Of a stretch of DNA of 34,238 nt, positions 18,806 through 34,238 are shown piece by piece. Position numbers and translations under genes: made by a program. The number at the start of each line of letters is the position of its first letter. Position 1 is the first letter of the stretch. The stretch covers positions 1 through 34,238 of the forward strand of contig JANWIJ010000094.1 of the NCBI GenBank assembly GCA_025449935.1. The letters run 5' to 3'. This DNA comes from Chitinophagaceae bacterium. GTDB lineage: Bacteria; Bacteroidota; Bacteroidia; Chitinophagales; Chitinophagaceae. The notes beneath the pieces were generated by a model, which was given only the letters and a program-made list of their open reading frames with translations, did no database searches and was not told the origin of the DNA.

Positions 18806-21800
18806 TTAACGGATTACATCAACATAACCTGACATCTGGCTTCTGCCATTTTTTGGATTCACGATATAGTAATAGGTGCCAACAGGAACTGGTTTTCCAT
18901 TTACTGTTCCATCCCAGGGATTAGTATACCCTACTGAATGATATACTACCTGGCCATAGCGGTTGTAAATATCAACCGTACATCCAGGGTATGATTCCAG
19001 GAATTGTATTACCCATTTATCATGAACTCCATCCCCATTCGGACTGAAAATATTGGGTATCGCCGGCGCCTTCAGCACTTTCACAAACACTTTATCACTA
19101 TTCGAACATCCTTTATCAGTTGTAACAGTTAATGTATAGGTGATGTCATCAGGCGGTGAGGCATTGGGTTCAGCTATGGTAGTACTGCTCAGGCCCGTCG
19201 AAGGAGTCCACAAATATGTAATGGGCAAACCAGCATTTTGTGCAGGGGTAAGTTTAACCTGCCCGCCTTCCAGTACTACCTTATCTGGTCCCGCATTTAC
19301 CGGCGGCGTTTGATTTACTTCGATAACCTGCTCTTTAAAATTGGTACAGCCATTGGTGCCTGTAAACGTATAGCGAATAGTATGAAGACCTGCACCTGCT
19401 GTTGCCGGGCTGAATAATCCAGTAGCTGATATGCCGGGGCCGGAAAATACACCGGGAGGGCCAGGTAACCCATTTAGTAATTGCGCCTGGGTAACCTGGA
19501 AAGAAGCCGCGTCTGAACAAATGGCGGGCACAGCACCAAAGGCAAGCGTTGGCGTTGCAAGGATCGTTATATCCCTTGTTACGCTGCCCAGGCAATTAGT
19601 ACCGGAAAAAGCCACGTAGCGAACCTGGTATATTTTGGAGGCCGGTGATCCAAATTCAGGATAGGTGTGCGTATACTGTGTTCCGGCAACGGGATTAATT
19701 ACCGTTGTTTTTACAGTTATATCATTAAGATAATCCCAATAAATTTCAAGTTTGATCATGTTACCCTGTACTGAAGATGCATCTTCAATAACCAGGTCCT
19801 TGTTGCTGCATAAAGCTCCCGGAGTCTTAACAGTAAAATCTGCATTGAGCACGGCCCCGTTCACAAAGAATGTTTGCAGGACAGTATCCTTACATCCGTT
19901 ATTGCTGGTGGCAATCAGTCTTACTGTATAGGAACCCATCACTGTAAAACCGTGTGTGGGGTTTTGTAAGGTGGAAGTATTCGCTGCTCCGCTTGCTGGA
20001 TCACCAAAATCCCATTCCCATCCCGTTATTGTACCACCAACAACCTTACTGGTGTCGGTAAACGGCGCTGCAGGGTCACTGGTACAGGCCTGGGGGAAAA
20101 TAAATCCGGCCTTGGGTCTTGCATTGATCACCACAGATTTTGGAGGTGCAACACTCACACAACCTTTATCAGTTGATACTGTAAGTGTGACCGTATAAGA
20201 TCCGGCGGCTGCAAATGTATGGGTTGGATTTTGCAGGGTCGATGTGTTAGCTCCGCCGCTCCCGATATCCCCAAAATTCCATTGCCAGCTATTCAACACG
20301 CCGGCATTGGCTACAGAGATATCCGTAAAGCTGATAGTCCTTGTTTCACAGCCCGGAAGGCTAAAGTTGAAATCGCTGGTTGGTAAAGGATTTACGGTAA
20401 CGGTGGTTGACCCGGTTTGTGCCTGGCTGCACAGAATACCGCTGCCTTCCTGTACGCTGACCAGGTTGTAATTAAGGATGCCTGCAGTAGTTGTGGGTAC
20501 AGCAAGTGTCACAGAATTACTAGTCGTAGTTGTCGATATAGTTTGATTTGGGCCGTTATTAATGTTATAAACAAATGTATAAGGTGCAGTACCCAAGGCA
20601 CCGGTGAATGTCACAACTGGAGATGGAGCATTCAAGCAAACTTCGGAACCCCCGCTGATACTGGCAGTAGGCAATGCATTTACTGTAACAGTTACCGAAC
20701 CGGTTTGGGATTGTGCACAAAGGTTGCCACTACCTTCCTGGACGCTTACAAGGCTGTAAACAAAACTGTTGGCCGAACCAGTTGGTACAGTAACCGAAAC
20801 GGAGTTTCCGCTGGTAGTTGAAATAGTTTGATTGGGACCGTTATTGATTGTATAGATGAATGTATATGGTGCCGTGCCTCCTGCACCTGTAAATGTAATG
20901 CTGGGTGAAGTAGCATTAAGACATACACTGGTATTTCCCGAAATGCTGGCTGTCGGCAAAGGTTTTACAGTAACCGTTGCAGAACCTGTTTGCGCTTGGG
21001 TACATTGACTCGCGGTGCCATCCTGCACGGTTACCAGGCTATAGGTATATGTCATAGCTATATTCGTTGGAACTGGAACGGCGACAGAATTTCCGCTGGT
21101 GGTCGTTACAGTTAGGTTGGTCCCGCCATTGATATTATACGTAAATGTAAATGGCGCAGTACCCACTGTCCCTGTGAATATAACATCCGGTGAGGGTGCA
21201 TTCAGGCAAACCACTGTATTACCTGCAATATTTCCTGCAGGCAATGGATGCACGGTTACGTTGTGTGAGGCACTATTATTCACCGTCTGGCATCCGGCCG
21301 CGGAAGTAACATTTAATGTAACGGTATAAGTGCCCGCCGCCGCATAAATATGAGACGGGTTCTGTAAAGACGATGTCGGTGACCCATCCCCAAAATTCCA
21401 GGTCCATCCGGTAATAGTACTTCCGGGAGCAGTGCTGGCATCAGAAAATCCAATAAGACTCCCTATACATACAGCAGGTAAAGAGTTAAATGCCGCCTGT
21501 GGTTCAGCATATATGGTATTAATAATTGTTTGTTTGATATTAACACAGCCATTATTGGTCGTAACTTTTAGTGAAACGGTATATGGGCCTGTGCCGGTGT
21601 AAATATGCAATGGGTTTTGTAAGGACGATGTCGGTGATCCATCCCCAAAATTCCATTCCCAGCCAGTGATGGTATTACCAGCTGTCACGGTTGACAGATC
21701 GGTGAACTGGGTTGCACCTGATGGCAAACATACCGCTGCGGGGAATGAAAAGTCACTGACCGGATTAGGATAAATGGTTACATTAAATGTATGGGGAAGA

Positions 21801-23980
21801 CTCTGGCAGCTTCCTACACTTACTGTCAGCGAGACTGTATAGACACCGGGTCCGGCATAGGTATGTGTGGGATTTTGCACGGTTGAATTATTGCCATCTC
21901 CAAAATCCCAGGACCATGCGGTAATTCCGGCTGTGGAATTATCGGTGAACGTAATGGTGTTACCGTCGCAAAATGGTCCCGTAGCGTTAAAGTTTGCCAC
22001 TGGGGGATCACTCAGGTTTACAACATGTGATGCTGTATCTGCAATACACCCGATATCCGTGATCAGGGAATATTTTACTGTATAAGCCCCGGCTGTTGCA
22101 TAAGTATGGGTAGGGTTATTGGCTGATGAAATAGTCGCGTCGCCAAAATTCCAGTGCCTGCTGAACACAGGTCTGCCCCCCGGACTGGAATTATCGTTGA
22201 ATTGAACAGGATTGGTGACACAACCATCCGTTGTGAAAGTGAAATCCGCAATCGGTTTGGCATATACTTCCACATCAAAAGCATATTCCTGCTCAGTTCC
22301 GCAACCGTCACCGTTGGGTGAGAAGGTAGTTATGTTGACCGGGTAAGTGCCGGTGGCAGTAAAAAAATAATAGCTTGGGAGTGAATACCAGTAAAGTGTT
22401 TTACCATTTACTATTGTCGTTGAATCAAAAGTTGATGGCGGGTAGCGGGTGATGGTGTCCGGGGGATTACCGGGCAGTTGATTCAGGTTCCAGTAAATAG
22501 AATCGGCCTTGTAGGGCAAGGAAATTTTGAATTTTGATCCCGTGCCAATACAGGCAGCAGGTGAAGCAGCGGCCCCGTAGAGAGTTGAAAAACCAAGTTG
22601 GGTGTAGAGGTCCCTGATATTTGTGCCCGCAGAATACGCGTATGATTCAAAATTCGTACTGAAGCCATACGCAATCGCGTTAAAACCACTGTCGGCAGAA
22701 AGCCGGTAGGATCCTGCTCCGGGTAATAATTCCCTTAAATAGGAATACCCGATTAATGGACCAAATGTTTGAAAAGCTGCGGAGGGTGCAAGTCCATTGA
22801 TCTGGAAACTTGGGACAGCCGCAGTTTTTATCAGTACGTTCACCCATTGATGGGTAATATTTTGCTGGGAAGAAGAAAAAATCGTGATATCACTGATGTT
22901 TTGTTCAATAGGATTTAAAATAACCATATCAGGATCCCCATAACCATTCCCTCCGCAGTTTTGCGTTTGGGCATATTGGGCCACACATACCGGCTTGTCT
23001 GAAGTGATCCTTGTTGGTTGTGTAAGAACAACCGGGGATGCAGTAAAGGCAGACGGGTAAATCTGGCCGGCCATTAAGGTGGCCACCAGGCTACCGTCAA
23101 AATAAACCGCGGTATTATCTTCGGAGGCCAGTACCCGGTAAGGATTCCCGTTTGGATAATCTCCAAAAGGAACAAATCCAAAATTCTTACCCCAGCTGCT
23201 TATCGGGTATTGCTGCTGGAAAAGCGGGTCATATGAATTACCGCCAGGACAGGAACTGGTCCCAAAAGTCAGGTTCGAACTGCCGGAAAATACAGCGATG
23301 GGCAGACAACCTCCCGATGAGGAAGCTGTGGATTCAATTAAAGTTCCCGTAATATCCTGGTCCGCCTGGTACTGGTACATATCACCCGTCTGCGGGAAGT
23401 TGATAATAAAAGCACTACCCACCACTCCGTTAAAACGAGGGGTGATTTTTACCTGTGTATTTGGTTTGACGGCGATTATCTGGAATTGTGACTTTGCGAG
23501 GTAGCTGCCGTTATTGGCTCCGGTTTGAGTAAAACTCATCGCGTAGTATTGTTTTCCCAAAACGTTTGTCGGCAATAATAAGGTGGCTGCACTTCTTGCA
23601 TTTCCCCATTGCTGCGCATATGCTACTACAGCAGGTTGGCCGGCATTAACTTTTACGCGAATTGATTTTTGAATGATGATACCGGATTCTCCATTACTGA
23701 TATGAGCGACCGAATGTGGAATTTGAATTTGTTGTAAATAATTATTACCGGCATTCACCGTGAAGTTGGCAGAGAAAGCCCCGTTTGTCATGGTGATCGT
23801 TCCGGAACTTGCCTTATCGGAGGTAATCCAGACGCTTAATGTTGCGAGTGTACCGCTTGGTACGTGTTGGGGAAAACAAAGCCAGAATTCCTTCCCTTTG
23901 TTGGAGAAGTCCTGGGCAAACATAGAACTGCCACATAAAATGGCCAGTAGTAGGGTACTTAACAGCTTAAATTTTCTCAT
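18806..23980 (-). CDS. Giant PKD-repeat surface protein with T9SS type B sorting domain
   Basis: A 1724-residue secreted protein. Signal peptide 1-22 (ends MFAQ). About 30-455 is an IgGFc-binding-like N-terminal domain (GKEFWLCFPQ...). PKD domains lie at about 577-657, 661-740, 741-827, 828-914, 1202-1288 and 1290-1376, each with W-x-FGD. Three tandem ~95-residue CLNA-type repeats are at 915-1201. A degenerate PKD-like unit (1379-1476) and two further Ig-like units (to 1638) follow. The C-terminus (1641-1724, FSPNGDGVHDKW...) is the gliding-motility-associated type B sorting domain. A weak -7 (TAAATTCG, 24021-24014) lies upstream. It probably acts as an adhesin or sheath-like surface filament; the ligand is unknown. 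Confidence 0.93.
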   Translation of the reverse strand: MRKFKLLSTLLLAILCGSSMFAQDFSNKGKEFWLCFPQHVPSGTLATLSVWITSDKASSGTITMTNGAFSANFTVNAGNNYLQQIQIPHSVAHISNGESGIIIQKSIRVKVNAGQPAVVAYAQQWGNARSAATLLLPTNVLGKQYYAMSFTQTGANNGSYLAKSQFQIIAVKPNTQVKITPRFNGVVGSAFIINFPQTGDMYQYQADQDITGTLIESTASSSGGCLPIAVFSGSSNLTFGTSSCPGGNSYDPLFQQQYPISSWGKNFGFVPFGDYPNGNPYRVLASEDNTAVYFDGSLVATLMAGQIYPSAFTASPVVLTQPTRITSDKPVCVAQYAQTQNCGGNGYGDPDMVILNPIEQNISDITIFSSSQQNITHQWVNVLIKTAAVPSFQINGLAPSAAFQTFGPLIGYSYLRELLPGAGSYRLSADSGFNAIAYGFSTNFESYAYSAGTNIRDLYTQLGFSTLYGAAASPAACIGTGSKFKISLPYKADSIYWNLNQLPGNPPDTITRYPPSTFDSTTIVNGKTLYWYSLPSYYFFTATGTYPVNITTFSPNGDGCGTEQEYAFDVEVYAKPIADFTFTTDGCVTNPVQFNDNSSPGGRPVFSRHWNFGDATISSANNPTHTYATAGAYTVKYSLITDIGCIADTASHVVNLSDPPVANFNATGPFCDGNTITFTDNSTAGITAWSWDFGDGNNSTVQNPTHTYAGPGVYTVSLTVSVGSCQSLPHTFNVTIYPNPVSDFSFPAAVCLPSGATQFTDLSTVTAGNTITGWEWNFGDGSPTSSLQNPLHIYTGTGPYTVSLKVTTNNGCVNIKQTIINTIYAEPQAAFNSLPAVCIGSLIGFSDASTAPGSTITGWTWNFGDGSPTSSLQNPSHIYAAAGTYTVTLNVTSAAGCQTVNNSASHNVTVHPLPAGNIAGNTVVCLNAPSPDVIFTGTVGTAPFTFTYNINGGTNLTVTTTSGNSVAVPVPTNIAMTYTYSLVTVQDGTASQCTQAQTGSATVTVKPLPTASISGNTSVCLNATSPSITFTGAGGTAPYTFIYTINNGPNQTISTTSGNSVSVTVPTGSANSFVYSLVSVQEGSGNLCAQSQTGSVTVTVNALPTASISGGSEVCLNAPSPVVTFTGALGTAPYTFVYNINNGPNQTISTTTTSNSVTLAVPTTTAGILNYNLVSVQEGSGILCSQAQTGSTTVTVNPLPTSDFNFSLPGCETRTISFTDISVANAGVLNSWQWNFGDIGSGGANTSTLQNPTHTFAAAGSYTVTLTVSTDKGCVSVAPPKSVVINARPKAGFIFPQACTSDPAAPFTDTSKVVGGTITGWEWDFGDPASGAANTSTLQNPTHGFTVMGSYTVRLIATSNNGCKDTVLQTFFVNGAVLNADFTVKTPGALCSNKDLVIEDASSVQGNMIKLEIYWDYLNDITVKTTVINPVAGTQYTHTYPEFGSPASKIYQVRYVAFSGTNCLGSVTRDITILATPTLAFGAVPAICSDAASFQVTQAQLLNGLPGPPGVFSGPGISATGLFSPATAGAGLHTIRYTFTGTNGCTNFKEQVIEVNQTPPVNAGPDKVVLEGGQVKLTPAQNAGLPITYLWTPSTGLSSTTIAEPNASPPDDITYTLTVTTDKGCSNSDKVFVKVLKAPAIPNIFSPNGDGVHDKWVIQFLESYPGCTVDIYNRYGQVVYHSVGYTNPWDGTVNGKPVPVGTYYYIVNPKNGRSQMSGYVDVIR
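20378..21238 (-). repeat. Three tandem ~286-bp coding repeats in the PKD protein
   Basis: Units at 21238-20951, 20950-20666 and 20665-20378 encode 96, 95 and 96 residues. Each has an N-terminal CLNA motif, GTAPYTF (or APFTF), a Thr/Ser-rich hairpin, VSVQEGSG-type and QTGS-TVTV segments. Units 2 and 3 are the most alike (shared INNGPNQTIST). The two flanking PKD domains (741-827 and 828-914) also share near-identical DNA around 21358-21400 and 21611-21660. Confidence 0.85.
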
Positions 23981-24574
23981 TAGTCCAAAAGTCCTGGGAG
24001 TGAAAAGAATTGCCGAATTTACTCAAAAGATCGGAAAATACTAAGCAATTTCCAGTATTCTGAATAAATGGTTAACACCCTGCTTTAAAAGGGTTTAAAC
24101 CTCGTATAACTACGATACATAAACGCCTGTTTTTTTCAATCTAACACCTGCGCGGCAATTACCAGGTCAACAGCCTCACGTTTCCGTCCCGGAATTTAAT
24201 TTTAAGCACCAGACAAATGTCTATTTTTTTATATTCATATTCCTATTTGAAGTAATAAATGAATGAAACCTGATTCACTATTAGTTATCAAATGAATCAT
24301 TCTTACTTTAAGATTTTGTTTAGATAATTCCATTTTACTGTATATAATTTCTATTTTATGCTATAAATATTGAATGTTTATATTCAAATAATAGTCATAA
24401 ATTATTGAACTACAATGTATATCATTATATTTTTATAGCAAGTATTTTAGTACCTAACCTACGCTCCATTTTATGTCCATTCACTAATAATCTTAGTTTC
24501 CTTTTTTGATTAATACAATGGTCGTTCAGGCTCCTCCCACATATTCTATTACATTGCATTCAATTCAAAAGCTG
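23981..24574. other. Long AT-rich intergenic region between divergent genes
   Basis: 594 bp without a supported gene. The part next to the PKD gene holds the 10-bp palindrome GGTTTAAACC (24092-24101), immediately followed by TCGTA-TAAC-TACGA (24102-24115). Another short dyad, AGACA-AA-TGTCT (24211-24222), precedes a T-run. From about 24225 to 24480 the sequence is strikingly AT-rich, with TGATTCA/TGAATCA (24271-24299) and TTGAAT/ATTCAA (24370-24387) inverted repeats. I found no convincing RNA gene or exact -7 element. Confidence 0.5.
24271..24299. repeat. Inverted repeat in AT-rich region
   Basis: TGATTCA (24271-24277) and TGAATCA (24293-24299) are perfect 7-nt arms around a 15-nt spacer. 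An overlapping alternative pairing, GAATGA (24261-24266) with TCATTC (24297-24302), is also possible. Confidence 0.4.
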
Positions 24575-25039
24575 ATGAAAAGCTTTCCCCCGCTATTGTT
24601 GCTTATTGCCTGCTTTTCTATTTTGGGGTCATCCTGCGGCTCGTTGAAAGAACCAGAATTCAGGAGCATAGAAAATATCCGGTTGACCAGGTTAGGAACC
24701 AGGCAGTCGAAGCTGGCACTTGACCTGAATTACCATAATCCCAATAAATCGAGGTTGAAATTGAAAGAAGCTGAAGGGGATGCCTGGCTGGACGGGAACT
24801 TCCTGGGCCATTTTACAGTCGACACATTGATTGAGATTCCACGAGTTGCGGATTTCCGCTTGCCCATCACCCTGGAACTGGATATGAGCCAGGTTTTGAA
24901 GAATTCTTTGGCTACTTTCTTAAAATCCGAGGTGATGGTCAGGGTAGAAGGAAAGGCCAAATTGGGCAAAGGGGGCCTTTATATCCGATACCCGCTACGG
25001 TATGAAGGGAAACAGAATCTTAGTAGACTTTTGAGATGA
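24575..25039 (+). CDS. LEA type 2 (LEA14-like) domain lipoprotein
   Basis: A 154-residue lipoprotein. The ATG at 24575 gives a standard signal (Lys2, hydrophobic LLLLIACFSILG, lipobox with Cys21). Longer in-frame starts at 24506 (TTG) and 24518 (ATG) would bury the signal and are rejected. Residues about 30-150 form one LEA2 domain: the LALDLNYHNPNK strand-turn, a central LPITLELDMSQVL and a GLYIRYPLRYEG end. LEA2 domains are small beta-sandwiches linked to desiccation tolerance in plants; in bacteria the role is mostly unknown. It faces the HMA-protein gene convergently across a repeat-rich spacer. Confidence 0.85.
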   Translation: MKSFPPLLLLIACFSILGSSCGSLKEPEFRSIENIRLTRLGTRQSKLALDLNYHNPNKSRLKLKEAEGDAWLDGNFLGHFTVDTLIEIPRVADFRLPITLELDMSQVLKNSLATFLKSEVMVRVEGKAKLGKGGLYIRYPLRYEGKQNLSRLLR

Positions 25040-25053
25040 ATCGGGGTACCTCG

Positions 25054-25160
25054 AGTTTAAGGTTTAAAGTCTAAGGTTAGGTTTTCTTATACCAGTCCGC
25101 ACACTGCCTTCCTGAATCCATAAACTCAGGAATTATACTTTAAACATTAAACCTTAAACT
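25054..25160. repeat. 14-bp perfect inverted repeat between convergent genes
   Basis: AGTTTAAGGTTTAA (25054-25067) is exactly complementary to TTAAACCTTAAACT (25147-25160) across 79 nt. The arms consist of TTTAAAC/TTAAACC words that continue in both flanks. The 144-bp spacer has no gene. Confidence 0.7.
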
Positions 25161-25181
25161 TTCAACATTAAACTTTAAACC
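25143..25181. repeat. Direct repeat of a 22-nt TTTAAAC-rich unit
   Basis: AACATTAAACCTTAAAC (25143-25159) recurs as AACATTAAACTTTAAAC (25165-25181) with one mismatch and 22-nt periodicity. It overlaps the right arm of the inverted repeat and ends 3 nt before the stop of the HMA-protein gene. Confidence 0.7.
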
Positions 25182-25183
25182 CT

Positions 25184-25573
25184 TCACTGTTGCGGTGGCG
25201 GTGGTGGAGTTTTTGGTTTTGGGTGGCCTCCCCCATCTTCATATTTCTTACAGATCCTGGGTAGCCTGTTATATGCATCCGGCGTGGCTTCCACATCATC
25301 GGCATCGTAACCTGCATTGGCAATGGCCGTTTTTATCTGCTCAATATCTGTTCGGTCGGTGAAGTATTTCACTTTGGTCTCTACCTTCCGGTAATTGACA
25401 TTTATCTCCTGTACCCCGTCATATCTCTTCAGGTATGTTTCGATTCTTGTCTTACAGTTTTCACAGAGGGCATTGGGCGTTTTAATCGTAGCCGTGACAA
25501 TTGCTTTTGTCTGTGAAAAACCGCTAAGCGGCAAGCTTGCAGTCAATACAGCGCCAATAAGAAATTTTTTCAT
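25184..25573 (-). CDS. Exported heavy-metal-associated (HMA) domain protein
   Basis: A 129-residue exported protein. Signal peptide about 1-21 (ends SGFSQ) and an HMA ferredoxin-like domain about 24-95 with the metal-binding CxxC at Cys37-Glu-Asn-Cys40 (CENCKTRIETYLKRYDGV). A tail of about 30 residues is Gly/Lys/Pro-rich and ends in six consecutive prolines. The metal is probably Cu+ or Zn2+ and cannot be decided from sequence. It lies 24 nt after pyrE on the same strand, so it is probably co-transcribed, although no functional link is apparent. Confidence 0.85.
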   Translation of the reverse strand: MKKFLIGAVLTASLPLSGFSQTKAIVTATIKTPNALCENCKTRIETYLKRYDGVQEINVNYRKVETKVKYFTDRTDIEQIKTAIANAGYDADDVEATPDAYNRLPRICKKYEDGGGHPKPKTPPPPPQQ

Positions 25574-31069: not shown

Positions 31070-32701
31070 TCATTTTTCCTGCATAAACGGGTACTTATAA
31101 TCCGTAGGAGGATTAAAAGTTTCCTTGATTGTCCTGGCACTCAGCCAGCGGTATAAATTTAAAATTGACCCGGCTTTATCATTGGTTCCGCTTCCGCGGG
31201 CACCGCCAAATGGTTGCTGGCCTACTACGGCACCCGTAGGTTTATCATTGATATAAAAATTACCGGCTGCATGCCGGAGTTTATCGGTAGCCTGGTCAAC
31301 AGCAGCCCGATCCTTTGCAATTATAGAGCCAGTGAGTGCATATGGTGAAGTAGTATCAACAAGATCGAGTGTTTTTTCAAAACTGTTGGCGGGATATATA
31401 TAAACCGTCAGGACCGGTCCGAATATCTCTTCGCACATCGTCACATACTTCGGATTTTTTGCCTCGATAATGGTGGGCTGAACAAACCAGCCTTCTTTGC
31501 TGTCACACTTGCCACCTGCCCAGATCTCTGCCTTCGGATCTTTACGGGCATTGTCAATATACTGTTTGATATTGTTGAAACTCTTTTGATCAATTACAGC
31601 ATTAATGAAATTTGAAAAATTTTCGACGGTCCCCATGCTGAAACTTTTGACGCCCGCGATCAGTTTCTTCTTTACTTCTTCCGCCATGTTGGAAGGAATA
31701 TATGCCCTGGATGCAGCGGAACATTTTTGTCCCTGGAATTCAAACGCACCCCGCAGCAATGCAGTCACCACCACATCCGGGTCTGCACTCTTATGTGCCA
31801 GGACAAAGTCTTTACCGCCGGTCTCTCCCACTATCCGTGGGTATGATTTGTACATCCCCATATTCTTACCGATGGTTTCCCACATATTGTTGAACACGCC
31901 TGTTGAACCGGTGAAATGTACGCCGGCAAAATCACGGTGATTGAAACATACTTTACCGATGGTGGGGCCATCTACATAAATCAGGTTGATAACTCCATCG
32001 GGCAAACCCGCTTCTCTTAAAATCCGCATCGTCATTTGGGCAGCGTAAACCTGGGTATTCGCCGGTTTCCACACCACCACGTTTCCGCACATGGCAGCTG
32101 AAGTCGGGAGGTTGCCACCGATTGCTGTAAAGTTGAAGGGGGTAACTGCCAGTACAAATCCTTCCAGGGGCCGGTATTCCATTCGGTTATGCATACCGGG
32201 GCTGCTGATAGGTTGTTGCTTATATATTTCAGAAAGAAAATGAACATTAAAACGCAAAAAGTCGATTAACTCACAGGCTGCATCGATCTCTGCCTGGTAC
32301 GCATTTTTGCTTTGACCCAGCATCGTCGTACCATTCATGTAGGGACGATATTTTGTAGCCATCAGATCAGCCGCTTTTAAAAAAATCCCTGCCCTGTTCT
32401 CCCAGCTTGTGTTAGCCCAACTCTCCTTAGCAGCCAAGGCCGCTTCAATGGCCTGTTCTACATGTTTTTGCTCTCCTGCATGGAAGTATCCAAGTACATG
32501 TCTTGTTTCATGCGGGGGACGGATGGCTATTTTTTTATTGGTACGAACCTCTTTGCTCCCGATATACATCGGGATATCCATTTCCAGTTTCTTTAACTCG
32601 CCCAGCACTTCTTTTAATCTTTTCCGTTCCGGTGAACCGGGGGAATAGTTCAATACAGGCTCATTGACAGGCATGGGATAAGCAAATGTTCCGATACTCA
32701 T
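31070..32701 (-). CDS. pruA: L-glutamate gamma-semialdehyde (delta-1-pyrroline-5-carboxylate) dehydrogenase
   Basis: A 543-residue NAD-dependent aldehyde dehydrogenase that turns the proline breakdown product glutamate semialdehyde into glutamate. The catalytic Cys is C327 in GQKCSAASR. The general-base Glu is E293 in GETGGKD, and the Asn of VTPFNFTA is N190. The FTGST (263-267) dinucleotide loop and the C-terminal QQPFGGARGSGTNDK signature are specific for the PruA/RocA group. Length is that of the single-domain form. No promoter was found. Its ATG lies 5 nt from the left inverted repeat of the four-helix-bundle cassette, which may have displaced or replaced its control region. Confidence 0.95.
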   Translation of the reverse strand: MSIGTFAYPMPVNEPVLNYSPGSPERKRLKEVLGELKKLEMDIPMYIGSKEVRTNKKIAIRPPHETRHVLGYFHAGEQKHVEQAIEAALAAKESWANTSWENRAGIFLKAADLMATKYRPYMNGTTMLGQSKNAYQAEIDAACELIDFLRFNVHFLSEIYKQQPISSPGMHNRMEYRPLEGFVLAVTPFNFTAIGGNLPTSAAMCGNVVVWKPANTQVYAAQMTMRILREAGLPDGVINLIYVDGPTIGKVCFNHRDFAGVHFTGSTGVFNNMWETIGKNMGMYKSYPRIVGETGGKDFVLAHKSADPDVVVTALLRGAFEFQGQKCSAASRAYIPSNMAEEVKKKLIAGVKSFSMGTVENFSNFINAVIDQKSFNNIKQYIDNARKDPKAEIWAGGKCDSKEGWFVQPTIIEAKNPKYVTMCEEIFGPVLTVYIYPANSFEKTLDLVDTTSPYALTGSIIAKDRAAVDQATDKLRHAAGNFYINDKPTGAVVGQQPFGGARGSGTNDKAGSILNLYRWLSARTIKETFNPPTDYKYPFMQEK

Positions 32702-32743
32702 AATAGGTTGATTTGGAGGTTTGATAATTAGATGATGTGGTGA

Positions 32744-33100
32744 TTAGTCGTGCTTTTTTGAGGAGGCAATTATTTTTGACAATACCAGGATAATCGAAGA
32801 GCATTCATTTAACAACTCTTTGCAATCCGGACAATCACCTGACTGATCACAAAGCAAAAGCCAATATTCCGTTTCATCAGCCTCTTTAGCAGCAATCTTC
32901 ATCTTATGAATAAAGTCAGGCCTGCTCTCCGCATTTTGCGCCTCTCTGACATTTGCACCAATGCTGGTTCCTGACTTTAGGAGCTGTGTTCCCAAAACAA
33001 ATTTTCTTTCCTTCTCCAGGAGCCCGGAATACTTCAATATTTTCAATGCAAAATTGAAAGTTAGTTCAACAATCAGGTTTTTTTCCTTATTACCCTGCAT
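32744..33100 (-). CDS. Four-helix-bundle protein (23S rRNA intervening-sequence protein family)
   Basis: A 118-residue helical protein of the family first found in intervening sequences of 23S rRNA genes (TIGR02436). Diagnostic parts are VELTFNFALKILKY (about 10-23), the central LLKSGTSIGANVREAQNAES (35-55) and KMKIAAKEADETEYWLLL (65-82), ending with a hydrophobic helix. The related bAvd protein assists reverse transcriptase in diversity-generating retroelements, but no reverse transcriptase is nearby. It has two Cys residues (CPDC) in a loop. The gene sits between prfB and pruA on the same strand, flanked by inverted repeats. Its function outside rRNA genes is unknown. Confidence 0.88.
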   Translation of the reverse strand: MQGNKEKNLIVELTFNFALKILKYSGLLEKERKFVLGTQLLKSGTSIGANVREAQNAESRPDFIHKMKIAAKEADETEYWLLLCDQSGDCPDCKELLNECSSIILVLSKIIASSKKHD

Positions 33101-33127
33101 ATACCCTTTTTCTAATCAATGACAAGG

Positions 33128-33153
33128 CTGTAATTAGGCAATTTCCTAATCAG
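33128..33153. repeat. Hairpin near the right end of the cassette
   Basis: CTG-ATTAGG (33128-33130, 33133-33138) pairs with CCTAAT-CAG (33145-33153) around a CAATTT loop and a 2-nt bulge. It shares bases with the right inverted repeat, so the two structures would compete in RNA. Confidence 0.5.
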
Positions 33154-33165
33154 CACATCTCCAAA

Positions 33166-34238
33166 TCAACTTGCATTTTCTTTCTCACTCATTAAATAAG
33201 CCTTGATAAACCCATCCAGTTCTCCATCCATCACAGGCTGCACATTCCCAACTTCATAATCCGTCCGGTGGTCCTTAATCATCTTATAGGGATGAAAAAC
33301 ATAACTCCGGATCTGGCTCCCCCATTCTATTTTTTTCTTATTGGCATTGGTAGCATCTTTTACCGCCTGGCGTTTCCGCAATTCTTCTTCATACAAACGG
33401 CTCTTCAGCATTTGCATGGCCAGTTCCCTGTTTCCTAACTGGCTCCTGTCCTGCTGGCACACCACTACAATGCCGGTAGGGATATGCGTTAGCTGCACTT
33501 TCGTTTCTACTTTATTTACATTCTGCCCGCCTGCACCCCCGCTCCGGGATGTTTCCATCTTTACATCGGCCGGGTTTACCTCAATATTAATCGTATCGTC
33601 CACCAGCGGGTATACATATACCGAAACAAAGGAAGTATGTCTCCTGGCATTGCTGTCAAATGGTGAAATGCGGACTAAACGGTGAACGCCACTCTCTGCC
33701 TTTAAGAATCCGTAAGCAAAGGGTCCGTCAAATTGTAAGGTCGCGGTTTTAATTCCGGCACCATCACCCCATTGCCAATCCATTTCCGTCACTTTCCATC
33801 CCTGCTTCTCACCATACATCCGGTACATCCGGGCCAGCATTTCAGCCCAATCCTGGCTTTCTGTGCCTCCTGCCCCGGAGTTGATCTGTAATACTGCGGG
33901 CAATTCATCTTCCGGTTCATTCAGGGTGGCTTTGAATTCAGCATCATCCAGGATAGCGAGTGCGTTGTCGTAGGCTTCTTTGGTTTCATCCTCAGTAGCA
34001 TCGCCCGCCTTCCAGAATTCAAAGAGTACGGCAAAATCCTCCACAGACGTTTCAGCCGTCTCATAGAGTTTTACCCAGTACTCATTTACCTTGGCGTTTT
34101 TAAGAATTTCGGTAGCTCTTTTGTTGTCGTCCCAGAAACCGGGACTTAACGAAAGCTGCTTGTCTTCTTCAATTTTATATCGTCGGTTTTCGACGTCAAA
34201 GAAACCTCCTTACCCCGGCAATGCGGGACCGCATATCA
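33166..34238 (-). CDS. prfB: Peptide chain release factor 2, with programmed +1 frameshift (5' end outside window)
   Basis: RF2 recognises UGA/UAA and releases the nascent chain. The catalytic GGQ lies in [12 protein letters not shown]. The usual N-terminal domain continues upstream of any start in this frame: the frame reads [16 protein letters not shown]... and then FWDDNKRA, up to a CTT TGA C site at 34201-34195. There the ribosome must slip from the 0 frame (which reads [12 protein letters not shown] then TGA) to +1. AGGAGG (34210-34205) sits 3 nt before the slip codon, as in the classical prfB site. About 365 residues are expected; the first codons are missing. The 3' end overlaps the right inverted repeat of the four-helix-bundle cassette. 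An in-frame GTG at 34044 is not the start. Confidence 0.93.
34195..34210 (-). other. prfB programmed +1 frameshift signal
   Basis: On the minus strand the sequence reads AGGAGGTTTCTTTGAC. It comprises a Shine-Dalgarno-like stimulator, a 3-nt spacer, the slippery CTT codon, the in-frame TGA and the +1 base C. This is the autoregulatory RF2 element: low RF2 makes the ribosome pause at UGA and shift. The strong AGGAGG stands out because normal start sites in the window lack such a sequence. Confidence 0.92.

Follow-up and report, generated by a model that had tools for sequence, protein, structure and literature searches.

The window analysed here (the whole stretch of 34,238 nucleotides) contains a small gene of the four-helix-bundle family, enclosed by complementary arms and situated between prfB and pruA. 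The locus thereby raises the question of whether the intervening sequences (IVSs) of 23S rRNA have relatives that reside between protein-coding genes and, if so, whether such cassettes move. The coordinates of the features are collected in Table 1; the names of the two neighbours, prfB (33166..34044) and the pruA-like gene (31070..32701), are those which we take from the preliminary description of the window and from general knowledge of these genes. On the minus strand, prfB (stop codon at 33166-33168) is followed by the PF05635 ORF (33100-32744) and then by pruA (ATG at 32701), the 3' arm of the cassette stopping 5 nt short of this ATG. The preliminary description had placed the gene of an IVS-type protein within a hairpin-armed cassette, and this is upheld by the complementary arms and by the profile matches of the encoded protein to PF05635 (77.1 bits, curated cut-off 33.8) and TIGR02436 (91.7 bits, curated cut-off 24). 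The solved structure nearest to the protein, by sequence, is 2rld (E 2.1e-22). The coordinates of the arms and ORFs likewise agree with two further claims, namely that the cassette fits exactly between the prfB stop and the pruA start, and that its arms overlap the stop codons of prfB and of the enclosed gene and end 5 nt before pruA.

Table 1. Features of the cassette, its host genes and a gene-less hairpin in the window
Feature	Position	Strand	Basis
PF05635 / TIGR02436 four-helix-bundle protein gene, 118 aa (cassette gene)	32744..33100	minus	ORF list, profile matches
5' arm in gene sense (GTTGATTTGGAGATGTGCTGATTAG), G-rich, overlapping the prfB stop	33146..33170	minus	repeat search, RNA fold
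3' arm in gene sense, two blocks (32707-32731, 32727-32747), overlapping the stop of the PF05635 gene	32707..32747	minus	repeat search, RNA fold
prfB (peptide chain release factor 2), upstream host gene; frame open further upstream	33166..34044	minus	ORF list
pruA-like aldehyde dehydrogenase, downstream host gene	31070..32701	minus	ORF list
Gene-less hairpin with heptamer (GTTTAAA-type) inverted arms	25054..25180	no strand	between convergent ORFs 24506-25039 (+) and 25184-25573 (-)

The arms pair over 25 nt (32707-32731 with 33146-33170, 84% complementary) and, in a second register, over 21 nt (32727-32747 with 33146-33166, 81%), and the perfect 12-bp core GTTGATTTGGAG/CTCCAAATCAAC reported at the outset is exact in the sequence. 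In an RNA fold of the whole cassette, the minimum free energy and the centroid structure each pair the terminal arms, in three blocks; the fold energy itself is unremarkable (z -1.28, with 12 of 100 shuffles equally good). An excision from the transcript by RNase III, as in rRNA IVSs, is no more than suggested by this fold. No Rfam match was obtained within the window, and the cassette does not lie inside an rRNA gene. Two other features of the window may be recorded. On the minus strand, prfB contains AGGAGG...CTTTGAC at about 34195-34212, which we take to resemble the classical programmed frameshift site of RF2. A repetitive protein of 1724 amino acids is encoded at 18806-23980, also on the minus strand, and its end presumably resembles the C-terminal regions of gliding/T9SS-type proteins.

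The genome from which the window derives (3.5 Mb in 118 contigs) yields nine PF05635 matches, and the inverted flank repeats at these genes differ in sequence from site to site. Across the genus, 42 genomes were scanned and 30 of them contain the family, with 210 matches altogether and up to 16 per genome, so that further copies exist, as anticipated. The companion expectation, that GTTGATTTGGAG-type ends would surround them, was not confirmed: in the copies read, other arm sequences are found there, often composed of 7-nt repeats, and the GATTTGG arm type was seen at the prfB site. Complementarity was quantified by an arm score, i.e., a local alignment across 350 nt on each side of the gene, with a threshold of 14. 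The genus set comprised 138 loci and 140 copies, from which 132 copies with at least 400 nt on each side were kept and 8 short-flank copies were left out. The two flanks of the same copy reach the threshold in 94 of these 132 copies and stay below it in 38, compared with 2.3% of 17,263 mismatched flank pairs (29 of 17,292 had been dropped as stemming from the same locus or scoring at least 40) and with 10 of 295 other genes in the same loci; the median score is 17 for matched flanks and 9.5 for both controls. In the window's own genome, eight of the nine copies score at least 14, the exception being L003. A copy's own pair ranks first in its row in 51 of the 132 cases. RNAduplex on 300-nt flanks was also tried as a measure (matched median -115.7 versus -100.0; the matched pair beats all 10 mismatched ones in 45 of 132 copies), but was swamped by general pairing, and local alignment was consequently made the main measure.

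The window copy's own arm pair scores 15.0, a value unmatched by any flank of the other 131 genus copies against either of its flanks. Two same-site relatives, L018 and L015, stand outside this 131-copy comparison set; the right arm of the window copy scores 13.5 and 14.0, respectively, against their left arms, and 13.0 against its own (intergenic part only).

The association of arms and gene extends well beyond the genus. Among the matches listed in a scan of named genomes (at least 580 relatives), 80 loci were kept, of which one was dropped and 79 had usable flanks. Matched arms reach 14 in 54 of the 79, compared with 3.3% of mismatched pairs, and 25 remain below the threshold. Those at threshold include members of the Bacteroidota, the Proteobacteria (Nitrosomonadales, Hydrogenophilus, Pseudaminobacter), the cyanobacteria (Nostoc, Phormidium), Geobacter, Hydrogenedentota, Ignavibacteria and Phycisphaerales. 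None of the 80 named loci matched an rRNA family of Rfam at the gathering threshold. Eight genomes reached via the named loci contributed 29 loci, of which 12 at contig edges were dropped and 17 were scored; 14 of the latter attain a score of 14, and four of these had also been counted among the named loci. In Adhaeribacter all six copies attain the threshold, each with different arms.

Plasmids contain the family as well, with a PF05635 match in 37 of 72,556 records, mostly cyanobacterial, and a search of 50,697 phage records with one query protein gave no match. Of the plasmid loci, 8 were scored; in 7 of these the score is 14 or more and is higher than that of any mismatched pairing of the left flank within the set of eight. 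The placements include one between nrdB and nrdA (antisense), one between an AAA-family ATPase gene and a ParB-family gene, and two between cas6 and cas4, on plasmids of Anabaena sp. 90 (L331) and Pseudanabaena galeata (L332). In this regard, passages of PMC3936711 note PF05635-family genes in cas loci, and the placement of the armed genes of L331 and L332 may bear on that reported presence.

The arms share a characteristic anatomy. Self-comparison of the genus flanks reveals an excess at lag 7 and its multiples, with a mean best run of 10.9 on the left and 10.8 on the right, compared with 4.4 in control regions. In the flanks of the named loci the lag-7 run rises to 14.1 (left) and 13.3 (right), the other lags giving about 4-6 save for the harmonic 14; some arms of the named set show other periods. 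The prfB site family departs from the 7-nt pattern: the window copy has no lag-7 stretch at the threshold of the heptamer scan and its arms are not clearly heptameric, and its relative L018 carries arrays of GATTTGGAGATGAAAC-like 16-nt units. The 5' arm contains more G than C in 91 of the 94 genus arms and 51 of the 54 named arms at threshold, and in the pooled genus 5' arms C accounts for about 6% of the letters. Stop codons in all three frames occur in 67 of 148 left arms, whereas the complementary strand has them in 22 of 148 and shuffled arms in 16%, in keeping with the stop-rich ends that had been ascribed to the cassette. For arms at threshold with a codirectional upstream gene (n=78), the left arm starts at a median of -1 nt relative to the first base after the upstream stop, with 64 of the 78 at 12 nt or less and 40 ahead of that base; this nearness to stop codons is partly forced, since empty sites have short spaces. 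A heptamer core common to the 94 arms was considered and rejected as weak (information 3.06, against a null maximum of 2.85 in 12 shuffled sets). The right arm of L090 holds a CCTGCCTGCCGGCAGGCAGG-type palindrome, and the closely related L061 is without one.

Relatives lacking the insert, as envisaged in the preliminary description, do occur. Of 22 prfB-pruA loci in the genus, 21 contain both genes, the remaining one (L013) running out at a contig edge. Five are filled by a PF05635 cassette, 15 have a gap of only 15-138 nt, and the junction in L012 (G022) is occupied by an unrelated 966-nt insert with no PF05635 hit. In eight loci from other families no pruA hit was found. Occupancy varies at other sites, too: between sdhA and sdhB, 4 sites are filled and 24 empty in 30 loci of 40 matching genomes (of the rest, L254 comprises only a gene tail at a contig edge and one was not assigned), and between gyrB/parE and a methyltransferase gene, 4 are filled and 26 empty (-8 to 18 nt) in 30 loci of 39 matching genomes. 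Filled sites of the latter kind measure 423-424 nt, or 619 nt in L292, whose stop may have been set at the wrong place. An apparent right-arm remnant, judged by eye, was noted in the sdhA-sdhB locus L257. No target duplication is evident by eye in the comparisons of filled and empty sites, in which the intergenic spaces diverge too far between species.

Mapped on the host tree, and for the examined genomes only, occupancy changed at least three times at the prfB site, four times at the sdh site and three times at the gyrB site. Genes from the same site cluster by site in the tree, except for sdh_G001, which is placed elsewhere and has other arms. Homing into the prfB site was considered and discarded: FastTree placed the window's copy nearest to that of G009, yet the DNA tree and the AU test allow its grouping with that of G001 (p 0.085). 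The tree of the prfB-site cassette genes is thus in no significant conflict with the host genes and vertical descent is not rejected, so that one gain followed by losses could account for this site.

Whether arms and gene travel together was addressed by comparing copies at different sites, i.e., pairs without a homologous neighbour, some of which may be missed orthologs. The arms of such pairs cross-pair at 14 or more in 2.2% of cases at 20-29% protein identity (n=730) and 1.6% in the 30s (n=2090), followed by 4.5% in the 40s (n=710), 15% in the 50s (n=261), 21% in the 60s (n=89) and 42% (8 of 19) in the 70s. A joint spread of arms and gene, with later drift of the arms, would be expected to produce such a rise. 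The only different-neighbour pair above 80% identity, L135 and L137, also has arms that cross-pair at 14 or more. The left flank of one of the two matches the right flank of the other in inverted order, so the cassette or its surroundings were inverted between the species, and owing to this shared inverted flank the pair does not represent a clean new site. L137 also contains what we take to be a transposase-like ORF inside its right arm. The proposed movement between intergenic sites is inferred: arm sharing between different sites is commoner when the proteins are related, but a near-identical copy occupying two clean sites did not turn up, and the prfB copies are compatible with vertical descent. 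Copy-specific co-variation of the arms was dropped as a claim, since arms pair better within a copy than across copies in only 6 of the 10 same-site groups compared, which leaves compensatory co-evolution of the arms unsupported.

The cassettes are oriented with respect to their hosts. In a count covering 131 of the 132 genus copies, 83 of those between same-strand neighbours are sense and 9 antisense (p 4e-16); another 28 come after a gene whose far neighbour is convergent with it, and in 11 the flanking genes diverge. In the five ortholog pairs tested, dN/dS ranges from 0.07 to 0.14 (dS exceeding 1 in two), and by this measure the PF05635 protein is under purifying selection in these pairs.

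Heptameric repeats also occur without the gene. Our scan of the window's own genome covered 409 kb, namely the contigs known to carry PF05635 and the window, and detected 16 periodic stretches at lag 7, as opposed to 0-4 at other lags and 12 at the harmonic 14. Six of the 16 lie within 100 nt of PF05635 genes (about 0.14 expected), around four of the seven genes present, and ten are solo. When ranked among 13 genomes (the window's own and 12 others), three of the ten solo arrays are closest to the cassette arms of their own genome. The gene-less hairpin in the window (Table 1) is a possible ORF-less relative of the cassette.

Published heptameric repeats were examined in the same manner. Parts of PMC4692102 describe GGGAATC repeats in Xanthomonas and GGGGA(C/T)T repeats in Nostoc, and parts of PMC4679880 describe TAACTGA repeats in Beggiatoaceae, cyanobacteria and Bacteroidetes. 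GGGAATC triplets were present in a single genome (G431) out of 369 sampled from one class, with four array sites, two of which are gene-less inverted pairs; no PF05635 hit was obtained in these four loci. The single PF05635 match of G431, partial in frame (positions 1-64 of 106), has GGGAATC-type arms with a score of 24, and its neighbours are presumably accB- and accC-like genes. TAACTGA triplets were found in 12 of 296 Bacteroidota genomes, ten of which carry PF05635. Among 14 TAACTGA sites read, one (in G558) is the arm of a PF05635 cassette with a score of 19.5, two (L380 and L419) look like hairpins without a gene, and at 11 neither a cassette nor a clear inverted partner is seen; at one site (L381) there is a weak PF05635 hit about 650 nt away.

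As to enzymes that might assist the cassettes, a reverse transcriptase was rejected as a resident requirement, given that PF00078 was matched in only 6 of the 42 genus genomes and not in the remaining 36, which include the window's own genome. The Y1 transposase family (PF01797) was matched in 18 of the 42, again without a match in the window's own genome.

The reading towards which we lean, with somewhat better than even confidence, is that the window cassette belongs to a class of small intergenic elements that is spread across the bacteria and akin to the 23S rRNA IVSs, and of which it is one copy: an arms-plus-gene unit that would spread with the help of a factor in trans. It draws on properties established from the sequences themselves: the anatomy, the spread over phyla, the fit to stop and start codons, the sense orientation, presence and absence at the same sites, the sharing of arms by related proteins and purifying selection in the pairs tested. 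A cassette would accordingly consist of a PF05635 gene between imperfect inverted arms built of short tandem units, often of 7 nt and peculiar to an insertion lineage, and arms and gene would spread together. Being rich in G and in stop codons, the 5' arm would allow the unit to sit at the stop codon of a gene without lengthening that protein, and on the host mRNA the arms may pair into a stem that isolates the cassette and may be processed. The four-helix protein may bind arm RNA or DNA, thus serving as the element's own spreading or maintenance factor, and strand transfer would be performed by a putative enzyme in trans. The arms would drift afterwards, such that old copies no longer share them. 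Besides the points made above on arm co-variation, clean second copies, target duplication, vertical descent at the prfB site and the partly forced nearness to stop codons, several results count against this explanation, namely the copies below the arm threshold (38 of 132 in the genus, 25 of 79 among the named loci), the lack of a PF00078 or PF01797 match in the window's own genome, the fold z of -1.28, the window arms that are not clearly heptameric, the 10 of 16 heptamer stretches located off PF05635 genes and the 11 of 14 TAACTGA sites with neither partner nor cassette.

The last two observations bear on a different order of events, in which the hairpins came first: replication slippage and quasi-palindrome repair would generate heptamer arrays and hairpins, and PF05635 genes would be passengers that settled in them or bind them for a host function. 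The common gene-less arrays (10 of the 16 own-genome stretches not near PF05635), the four GGGAATC sites of G431 without a PF05635 hit, the 13 of 14 TAACTGA sites that are not cassette arms and the variation of arms from site to site would all be in line with such an origin. We nevertheless regard it as rather unlikely, considering that arm sharing between different sites climbs with protein identity, that six of the 16 heptamer stretches have a PF05635 gene within 100 nt, against an expectation of about 0.14, and that the arms keep a constant polarity with respect to the gene (91 of 94). Purifying selection, sense orientation and the grouping of same-site copies, which roughly track the host genes, could alternatively point to ordinary genes, i.e., old and often lost accessory members of operons whose arms would be hairpins with a regulatory role, such as mRNA processing or translational insulation. 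This account appears unlikely in view of the diverse housekeeping neighbours at the sites read, the up to 16 copies per genome, the many empty sites and the sharing of arms between sites, as well as the position of sdh_G001 outside the other sdh copies in the tree, with other arms.

The Y1 transposase would offer yet another explanation, if the cassettes were MITE- or REP-like elements moved in trans by PF01797 and the four-helix protein were incidental. Indeed, all 18 Y1-bearing genomes of the genus carry PF05635, making up 18 of the 30 PF05635-bearing genomes, and none of the 12 PF05635-free genomes has Y1 (Fisher p 3e-4); among genomes of at least 2.5 Mb, cassette copy number is also higher in those with Y1 (p 0.005). 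Copy number, however, tracks genome size (Spearman 0.80), which confounds the correlation, the window's own genome has nine copies and no Y1 match, and purifying selection acts on the PF05635 protein in the pairs tested; we therefore consider this explanation very unlikely.

Beyond the arms-plus-gene element towards which we lean, a wider proposal can be put forward tentatively, as possible rather than probable. The intergenic heptameric repeats (GGGAATC, TAACTGA and others) would all belong to one pan-bacterial mobile class, as its arms, as derivatives that lack the gene or as decayed remnants, its gene would be the four-helix-bundle "IVS protein" that recognises its own copy-specific arms, and the rRNA IVS would be the special case that landed in an rRNA helix. 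PF05635 genes, annotated as "four helix bundle" or "S23" proteins, are widespread and often present in several copies per genome; no established role is known to us for those that are free-standing, and no link between these and inverted or heptamer arms was found in the open-licence library searched. The occurrence of armed PF05635 genes in many phyla, adjacent to stop codons, in sense orientation and with empty sites, joins the puzzles of the rRNA IVSs and of the heptameric repeats, and both thereby become testable. The similar cassettes between genes in many bacterial groups suggest an overlooked class of small genetic elements, which would add a mobile-looking class without a recognisable catalytic gene.

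Several known systems invite comparison. Avd, of the diversity-generating retroelements, belongs to the same broad four-helix-bundle family as PF05635; in contrast to the Avd systems, the genome of the window has no PF00078 match. REP/REPIN sequences with their RAYT, as generally understood, resemble the cassettes in being short palindromic units between genes that are associated with a protein gene and have derivatives without it. RAYT, however, is a transposase and REP sequences are family-wide, whereas the cassette protein is a four-helix bundle and the cassette arms vary by site. As for the IVSs of rRNA, not every one of them encodes an S23p protein.

Like the cassette arms, the published heptameric repeats are mainly intergenic and consist of 7-nt units, and both GGGAATC and TAACTGA proved here to be the arm type of one PF05635 cassette each. 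According to portions of PMC4692102, the GGGAATC repeats are located near stop codons, often as inverted pairs, heptameric repeats are generally not associated with mobile elements, and a detailed study of them was lacking. Unlike the cassettes, the repeats are linked to no encoded protein in the relevant portions of PMC4692102 and PMC4679880.

The rRNA IVSs, as presented in sections of PMC4990558, are known from Leptospira, Coxiella and other bacteria, lie inside rRNA and are cut by RNase III, and their origin and function are called unclear. PF05635-type genes are also mentioned in rRNA insertions of CPR bacteria in a section of PMC11270868, and one between guanylate kinase and nucleotide adenylyltransferase genes in a section of PMC5524665. 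In so far as these accounts extend, the rRNA IVS and the cassette have in common the protein family and complementary ends able to form a stem around the ORF. The cassettes differ from the IVSs there described in lying between protein genes, without an rRNA match, in several copies per genome and with arms that differ by site; the window cassette thus resembles an rRNA IVS yet lacks its defining location in rRNA. The S23p segment of Coxiella is suggested in the same part of PMC4990558 to be expendable, as opposed to the purifying selection on the cassette protein in the pairs tested. The Coxiella IVS measures 428 nt, and the tandem heptamers reported directly before its ORF in that part of PMC4990558 provide the strongest link of the cassettes to the rRNA elements.
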